Shown piece after piece: positions 4,382 to 5,486 of a DNA stretch of 64,000 nt. The notes under the pieces were generated by a model, which searched no databases, was not told the DNA's origin, and was given only the letters and a program-made list of their open reading frames with translations. The translations under genes were made by a program, and so were the position numbers. The stretch's first letter is position 1, and each line of letters begins with the position of its first letter. The stretch is from Alphaproteobacteria bacterium (lineage in GTDB: Bacteria; Pseudomonadota; Alphaproteobacteria; UBA7985; JAUIBT01), in assembly GCA_030428565.1 (NCBI GenBank), contig JAUIDR010000004.1, positions 1-64,000 on the forward strand, given 5' to 3'.

Positions 4382-4738
4382 ATGAAAACCAAATTGATTT
4401 GCTCCGTCTTGATCTGCGCCAGTGTTCTGACTGTCGCGAGTTGCTCGCGCCGCAACCAAGCTGATAATGCCGTCAACGATGATGACATTTTGGCGCCGCT
4501 GCCTGCCCCTGTTGCCCAAACCAACGTACCGGCTATTCCGGTCGCTGAACCCAATGTTCCGCCCAGCGTTCCCGTTGGCGTGCCGCAGCAAGTCGTGCAA
4601 GCGCCGACCCCGGCACCCATCAACCAAACCGTCGTCAGCCAGCCTCAACTGGCTCCCCTGCCCGCGCCCAGCGGCAACTGTGACGTAGTTCCGACGTCCA
4701 AGTCCGGCTTGGTGCAATTCCGCCGTAACTGCCTCTAA
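4382..4738 (+). CDS. Small proline-rich lipoprotein, paralogue 1
   Basis: A 118-residue predicted lipoprotein. MKTK is followed by a hydrophobic stretch and a lipobox (LTVASC), so the mature protein should begin at Cys22 and be lipid-anchored. The body is low in complexity and rich in Pro, Val, Ala and Gln, suggesting an extended periplasmic stalk. The C-terminus ends NCDVVPTSKSGLVQFRRNCL, with two cysteines that could pair. The same architecture and terminal motif recur in the next gene (5091-5486), so the two are paralogues. The start is ATG 4382; a start at 4370 is possible. I recognise no described family, and no function is assigned. Confidence 0.8.
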   Translation: MKTKLICSVLICASVLTVASCSRRNQADNAVNDDDILAPLPAPVAQTNVPAIPVAEPNVPPSVPVGVPQQVVQAPTPAPINQTVVSQPQLAPLPAPSGNCDVVPTSKSGLVQFRRNCL

Positions 4739-5090
4739 ACGGCAGACTTTGCAAAATAGAGCTTTGGTGCCGCTCGCGCCCCTTACTTAACTGGGGCCGA
4801 GCCGTGCCTTTTGTGGCGCCTCGACTGGGAGTTGATGTCTCCTGCTCGAGGTTTTGCGCGTCTGGGTTCTTGGCTGTCTGAGATCTGCCCTTAACAGTGA
4901 TGCCTCTACCACCTGGCAGATGCCTTCACCTCAGCCCAGCACCTTCCAATGCCAGATTCAAAACAAAGTTCCAGCTTCATAACAAAGTTAAGGTGTTGCC
5001 AACTTTAGGTCGTGTTTCCTTGCGTAAACTCTCCCTATTGCGGGCATGGAGTTTTCTAACCTGCCTTTTAAGATATTTGAGATGGACATT
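4739..5090. other. Intergenic region between the two lipoprotein genes
   Basis: About 350 bases with no convincing gene. AACAAAGTT occurs twice (around 4963-4989), and AAAGTT/AACTTT at about 4984-5006 forms an inverted repeat with an 11-base spacer. No clear promoter hexamer pair or terminator was identified, so whether the two lipoproteins are co-transcribed remains open. Confidence 0.45.
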
Positions 5091-5486
5091 ATGACCAAGA
5101 AATTAACGGTGGGCGGACTGGTTACTGTCGCTTTGTTCGCTGGCATTGCAGGTTGTTCGCGGACGCCGACACAGACCAACAGCAATGATATTTTCGCACC
5201 AACTGCGGTTCCCGCCGGCCCCGTCAGCGAGCCAATCGTCGCGGCGATTCCCGTCGCTGAAGCTAACACGGTGTCATATGCGCCTCAGCCGGTTGTTCAA
5301 GACGTGTACCAGCCCGTTCCGCTGGCACCGCCGGTCCAGCAGGCACAGGTTGCTCCGCTGGCTCCCGTGCCGACCATCGTAGCCCCACCGCTCAACGAGG
5401 CCCCACTGGCACCGCCAACCTTCGACTGTGACAACATCCCGACCTCCAAATCCGGCCTCACGCGCTACCGCGAGAGCTGTCTTTAA
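5091..5486 (+). CDS. Small proline-rich lipoprotein, paralogue 2
   Basis: A 131-residue predicted lipoprotein with the same plan as the gene upstream. MTKKLTVGG begins a signal peptide ending in the lipobox GIAGC. The mature region is rich in Pro, Val, Ala and Gln and contains a PVAEAN segment that resembles PVAEPN in paralogue 1. The C-terminus DCDNIPTSKSGLTRYRESCL shares the CDxxPTSKSGLxxxRxxCL pattern. ATG 5091 places the basic region directly before the hydrophobic core; ATG 5082 is a near alternative. A 15-bp-stem terminator follows at 5559. The function is unknown; the shared C-terminal motif is the part under selection and could bind another envelope component. Confidence 0.8.
   Translation: MTKKLTVGGLVTVALFAGIAGCSRTPTQTNSNDIFAPTAVPAGPVSEPIVAAIPVAEANTVSYAPQPVVQDVYQPVPLAPPVQQAQVAPLAPVPTIVAPPLNEAPLAPPTFDCDNIPTSKSGLTRYRESCL

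Follow-up and report, generated by a model that had tools for sequence, protein, structure and literature searches.

The analyzed window, a 64,000-nucleotide stretch of DNA from contig 68 of an alphaproteobacterial genome (G000 below), carries on its forward strand two adjacent genes encoding small lipoproteins, A and B, whose coordinates are given as window positions. Gene A (4382..4738) starts with the ATG at 4382, its stop codon ends at 4738, and its product has 118 aa. The sequence of A contains the lipobox cysteine Cys21 in the context VAS-C-S (4442..4444), with Ser as the +2 residue; the alignment places an N-terminal box D-I-L-A-P at 4484..4498, and pattern and profile searches identify one tip module, GNCDVVPTSKSGLVQFRRNCL, at the C-terminus (4673..4735). 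Gene B (5091..5486; ATG at 5091, stop codon ending at 5486, 131 aa) is organized in the same way: the lipobox cysteine Cys22 in IAG-C-S (5154..5156), the box D-I-F-A-P (5187..5201), which is the counterpart of D-I-L-A-P and is found in family f3 as well, and one tip module, FDCDNIPTSKSGLTRYRESCL (5421..5483). The ORF of B is open from 5046, so that the ATG at 5091 lies 45 bases inside a longer ORF. Each mature protein has a single lysine, and in both cases it lies inside the tip module (codons 4700-4702 in A and 5448-5450 in B). The spacer comprises 78 residues in A and 90 residues in B, 61-62% of them being P, V, A or Q.

The genes are preceded by a LamB/YcsF-family gene and followed by a purine/uracil permease-like gene, which is what we take the flanking genes to be from reading their sequences, and the same order is found in a second genome of the order, G002. 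Orthologues of A are present in G001 and G002; for B there is an orthologue in G002, and G004 and G006 contain relatives. MetG, also encoded in the window, has its best matches in Shinella and Sinorhizobium replicons (56-57% identity), which is consistent with an assignment to Alphaproteobacteria. The window has no match in Rfam and tRNA scans, and a scan for promoters and terminators around A and B gave nothing above shuffled sequences. At the contig start the window also contains, on the same strand (3-803), the end of a gene for a VWA-domain protein, which has a C-terminal Cys loop with a Lys and the terminal sequence ACPQVGRKDGRVVCLS; this protein is present at full length in G002 (L016:1299-3755), and the VWA domain was detected in the G002 copy.

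The preliminary description of this locus had reported two adjacent lipoprotein genes with a common tail including both cysteines, and this holds: the genes lie where they had been placed, and the tails GNCDVVPTSKSGLVQFRRNCL and FDCDNIPTSKSGLTRYRESCL have the same residue at 12 of their 21 positions. The stalks are of low complexity, and a chance resemblance or a misreading of low-complexity sequence could be considered as the source of the shared tip. However, none of 200,000 shuffles reached 12 identities, the shuffle maximum being 9, the tails have orthologues, and the codon changes between these are mostly synonymous. In A compared between G000 and G002, the tail codons comprise seven unchanged, 14 synonymously changed and no non-synonymously changed ones, against 25, 21 and nine, respectively, in the stalk; the corresponding numbers for B are six, 14 and one in the tail, and 18, 30 and 18 in the stalk. 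The A tail of G001 differs by one amino acid from each of G000 and G002. The predominance of synonymous changes indicates purifying selection on the tail, and the shuffle and codon tests together refute coincidence, the residual probability of which is negligible.

The same comparisons qualify the claim that conservation is confined to the tip. The tip is indeed kept better than the stalk in orthologues, the opposite of what would be seen if the tip were lost from conserved stalks, but the region after the lipidated Cys is also related between A and B (z 4.4; 2 of 2000 shuffles), and so, less strongly, is the stalk (z 3.3; 8 of 2000 shuffles). In all seven aligned proteins, C-S-R after the lipobox and D-I-x-A-P are invariant.

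We examined 11 genomes of the order (G000 to G010). The module, about 20 residues long, occurs in 16 copies in 12 proteins, one to three per protein, in seven of these genomes (G000, G001, G002, G003, G004, G006 and G009 by the module profile), while G005, G007, G008 and G010 are module-free. The module consensus is [FYG][DN]C-x3-P-[TRS]-[ST]-[KR]-x-[GEQ]-[LI]-x2-[YF]-[RQ]-x2-C. Both cysteines and an aromatic residue at position 16 are present in 16 of 16 copies and the proline in 15; position 10 is Lys in 13 copies, Arg in two and Gln in one, and position 17 is Arg in 13 and Gln in three. A signal peptide with a lipobox ending in Cys can be read in all 12 proteins, which are therefore predicted lipoproteins. 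The preliminary description had proposed to ask whether other exported proteins of the own genome have the motif. One further such protein, C on contig 19 (G000:C19), was found by profile and pattern searches; a stricter pattern retrieves A and B only. More than two exported proteins thereby combine a constrained tip module with a low-complexity stalk anchored to the membrane. Lipoproteins with three modules are found in G003 (288 aa) and G009 (about 319 aa); the G003 protein (L042:9081-10013) has an acidic DDPFADDPFADDPFADDPFAN repeat ahead of its modules.

A disulfide between the two module cysteines is plausible, because both are present in all 16 modules and the mature proteins contain no further Cys except the lipidated one. 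In the predicted fold of the last 44 residues, a helix begins at the conserved Lys and reaches as far as the second Cys (mean pLDDT 76, pTM 0.35, 2 sequences); the fold of full-length B is of low confidence (mean pLDDT 57) except for the same terminal helix. The module probably forms a short helix, which would start at the conserved Ser-Lys and be closed by one disulfide.

The preliminary description knew no family with this ending, and our searches agree: the module had no convincing match among Pfam, NCBIfam and PDB sequences, and the model of the 44-residue tail had no PDB match in Foldseek. Six module proteins scanned against Pfam and NCBIfam did not match Lpp or any other tether family, the peptidoglycan-binding domains OmpA, LysM and SPOR had no Pfam match in the module proteins, and no CAP domain was found in A, B, C and the f2 and f3 proteins with E up to 10 or 1. 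The matches of f2 proteins to LptM (E 0.0094 and 0.02) were rejected, their scores being 16 and 15 bits against an NCBIfam cut-off of 27.7.

Outside the order we found no convincing homologs. In a sample of the class, a relaxed pattern matched three of 385 genomes, all within the order, and was absent from the 381 others; its reversed version, used as a control, gave no matches. The full-length profile matched five of 385 genomes, of which G273 and G382, both outside the order, were discarded as having in-frame stops. In a phylum sample of 398 genomes, the module profile found the own genome and three of 397 others (E 0.0016-0.006). These three were judged to be chance matches: a 38-aa frame, a partial match of 12 residues and a frame with a TGA. 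The sole strict exact-pattern match in the genome contigs, L032, was rejected, as it is antisense to a 308-aa ORF and has no lipoprotein frame; this pattern demands Gly at module position 12 and would therefore overlook variants such as protein C. The named-genome scan, which was queried with B and detects only close relatives, yielded no relative, and neither did plasmids (query, the G006 protein) or viral contigs; a literature text search for PTSKSGL gave no match. Within the collections searched, the module family looks restricted to the order.

Five genomes contain a different small lipoprotein (MKRFA...CVPSEEVVL...), encoded downstream of another L,D-transpeptidase (LDT) gene on the same strand, at G003:C12, G005:C6, G007:C45, G008:C27 and G010:C134 (L100, L085, L095, L083 and L086, respectively). 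It has the C-terminus C-x2-IAYSKTGEYCAD, that is, a Cys-closed loop with SKTG, and ends in SKTGGDCAD in G005. As a wider family this second lipoprotein with a Cys-closed SKTG loop (in g2) was rejected: its pattern matched three of 286 genomes outside the order, whereas the reversed control pattern gave four matches, and for this reason it was not merged with the module.

The preliminary description had proposed to look for co-occurring partners of the motif. In all seven module genomes, one module lipoprotein gene is convergent with a gene for a YcbB/LdtD-type LDT: this is protein C in G000, G001 and G002, and further pairs are found in G003, G004, G006 and G009. The ORF ends are within about 0.5 kb of each other, with gaps of a few bases in G003, the smallest, and about 460 bases in G004, the largest. 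The three LDTs that were scanned (G003, G006 and G000) have Scaffold and YkuD domains above the Pfam cut-offs, and the neighbor LDT matches NCBIfam PRK10594 below the equivalog cut-off. The pair is convergent in three families, the LDTs having 36-51% identity to the G003 enzyme by TBLASTN. When the 11 genomes were searched with the LDT of G003, 37 matches were obtained; the 30 with loci were used for a tree, seven being left out. In this tree a split with support 98/97 sets the module-adjacent LDTs, together with one f1 paralogue, apart from the rest; some long branches meet in the tree. None of the four module-free genomes has an LDT on the module side. Three of these four are 72-82% complete; moreover, the module and LDT genes are neighbors, so that both might have been lost in a single deletion, and counts of presence and absence are not independent, given the relatedness of the 11 genomes. 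A and B have no LDT gene beside them: the LDT matches of the own genome are on contigs 10, 19, 88 and 101 and none is on contig 68. The LDTs of five genomes from other orders (G105, G137, G145, G174 and G191) have no module neighbor.

On its other side, in G000, G001 and G002 (genus g1), the gene for C adjoins a divergent gene for a CAP/SCP-domain lipoprotein. The gene divergent from the LDT gene beside C encodes a putative aminopeptidase (PF10023, E 1.2e-118; G000:C19 4595-5794, L041). The f1 LDT paralogue that groups with the module-adjacent LDTs in the tree (G000:C101, G001:C182 and G002:C42; L078, L079 and L080) lacks a module neighbor; it is adjoined by a divergent lipoprotein gene, which contains an OmpA domain in the G000 copy, the one scanned.

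In summary, the module is real, undescribed and order-restricted, and has a conserved link to an LDT. We propose that A and B belong to the peptidoglycan/LDT system as outer-membrane lipoproteins with the tip as the contact end, and assign this reading a probability of roughly 0.55. The lipid would hold the N-terminus in a membrane. As the residue after the lipidated Cys in the module proteins is Ser, Leu or Gly and not Asp, this would presumably be the outer rather than the inner membrane, the +2 sorting rule (Asp) being known from E. coli. The Pro/Val/Ala/Gln-rich spacer would cross the periplasm, and its length should be enough to reach peptidoglycan; the disulfide may strap the preceding loop to the end of the helix, and the C-terminal module would contact peptidoglycan and/or an LDT. 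Such a target is suggested by the architecture together with the linkage to one LDT clade and, in one genus, to a CAP-domain lipoprotein. The conserved neighborhood points to the periplasm and peptidoglycan rather than to display on the cell surface. Contact of the tip with the cell wall is probable and may serve to link the wall to the outer membrane, and we infer that A and B, which lack an adjacent LDT gene, share the job of their LDT-linked relatives.

The linkage could also be read otherwise, as a gene order inherited without functional meaning, the module serving in the binding of a metal or another ligand or as a surface epitope. This would agree with the position of A and B elsewhere in the genome and with the confinement of the family to one order, where gene order may simply persist; on the other hand, the pair has stayed convergent in three families despite the divergence of its LDTs, and module and LDT are jointly missing from four genomes. 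We regard this explanation as rather improbable. If the module does act on the cell wall, two special cases may be distinguished. In one of them, an LDT would join the module Lys to diaminopimelate, so that the outer membrane would be tied to peptidoglycan in the manner of Braun lipoprotein (Lpp). The convergent LDT gene is consistent with this, and so is the distribution of lysines: none of the 12 proteins is without a module Lys, and the mature chain of seven contains no other, compared with a Lys content of 3.9% in 41 long ORFs of the window. There is also a precedent, LimB of Coxiella, for which the cited parts of two reports give an internal Lys as the attachment point (PMC12274547; PMC11841132). 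However, Arg or Gln replaces the Lys in three of the 16 modules, and low-complexity stalks are Lys-poor anyway. Further lysines are found in C (three genomes; C has three of them besides that of the module), A of G002 and the G009 protein, and the module proteins end in Cys-Leu or Cys-Gly/Ser and not in Lys. Covalent attachment is conceivable, if rather unlikely.

In the other case, the module proteins would regulate or scaffold the LDT or other wall enzymes, like LpoB or DalA. This is in line with the gene linkage to the LDT and, in one genus, to the CAP-domain lipoprotein, and with the decrease of LDT-type (tri-tri) cross-links on loss of DalA reported in the cited part of PMC10470522, yet Pfam and NCBIfam scans revealed no sequence relation to LpoA/LpoB or the CAP domain, and for an activator 20 residues would be a small size. 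This role taken by itself appears unlikely. Covalent attachment would account for somewhat less than half of the probability given to the proposed peptidoglycan/LDT reading, and non-covalent binding or LDT regulation of the DalA/LpoB kind would make up the remainder. An unlikely and more far-reaching version is that the module is a new wall-attachment signal: an LDT would recognize the disulfide-held helix and link its Lys to diaminopimelate, and single- and triple-module lipoproteins would replace Braun lipoprotein in this order as the covalent tether between outer membrane and peptidoglycan.

In Lpp, the chain forms a helix and its last residue is Lys. The module proteins resemble Lpp and LimB in their N-terminal lipid, their likely reach through the periplasm, the candidate Lys and, in the case of C and the f2 and f3 proteins, an LDT gene nearby; they differ from Lpp in the low-complexity spacer, the Cys-closed tip and the internal position of the candidate Lys. 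LpoA and LpoB are outer-membrane lipoproteins that activate PBPs and have a flexible stalk and a contact end. The module proteins would share all three of the latter features, but they have no Pfam or NCBIfam match to these activators, and their tip comprises 20 residues compared to a large folded domain. The likeness to LptM is weak and limited to the signal peptide and lipobox region of the f2 proteins.

Alphaproteobacteria are said, in the cited part of PMC10470522, to lack both Lpp and LpoA/LpoB, and the same part states that the outer-membrane proteins joined to peptidoglycan in Rhodobacter sphaeroides are unknown. The module offers here a signature that is short enough to be searched for and tested, one particular clade of candidate LDT partners and proteins with a single candidate Lys. 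The DalA protein of R. sphaeroides (RSP_1200) is described in the same part as an outer-membrane lipoprotein that binds peptidoglycan non-covalently and co-precipitates LDTs, including RSP_1199 (PMC10470522), and the cited part of PMC9275681 annotates it with SCP/PR1 domains. DalA, compared here by its published description, is the nearest studied case, but the module proteins are not DalA: it is a protein of about 18 kDa with SCP/PR1 domains, whereas they have no CAP domain. What they have in common is that DalA, too, is an alphaproteobacterial lipoprotein acting with LDTs, and that in g1 the locus of protein C and its LDT also contains the gene for a CAP-domain lipoprotein. By locus number, RSP_1199 is the neighbor of DalA; among the module proteins, one in each of the seven genomes is encoded next to an LDT gene, and A and B are not.
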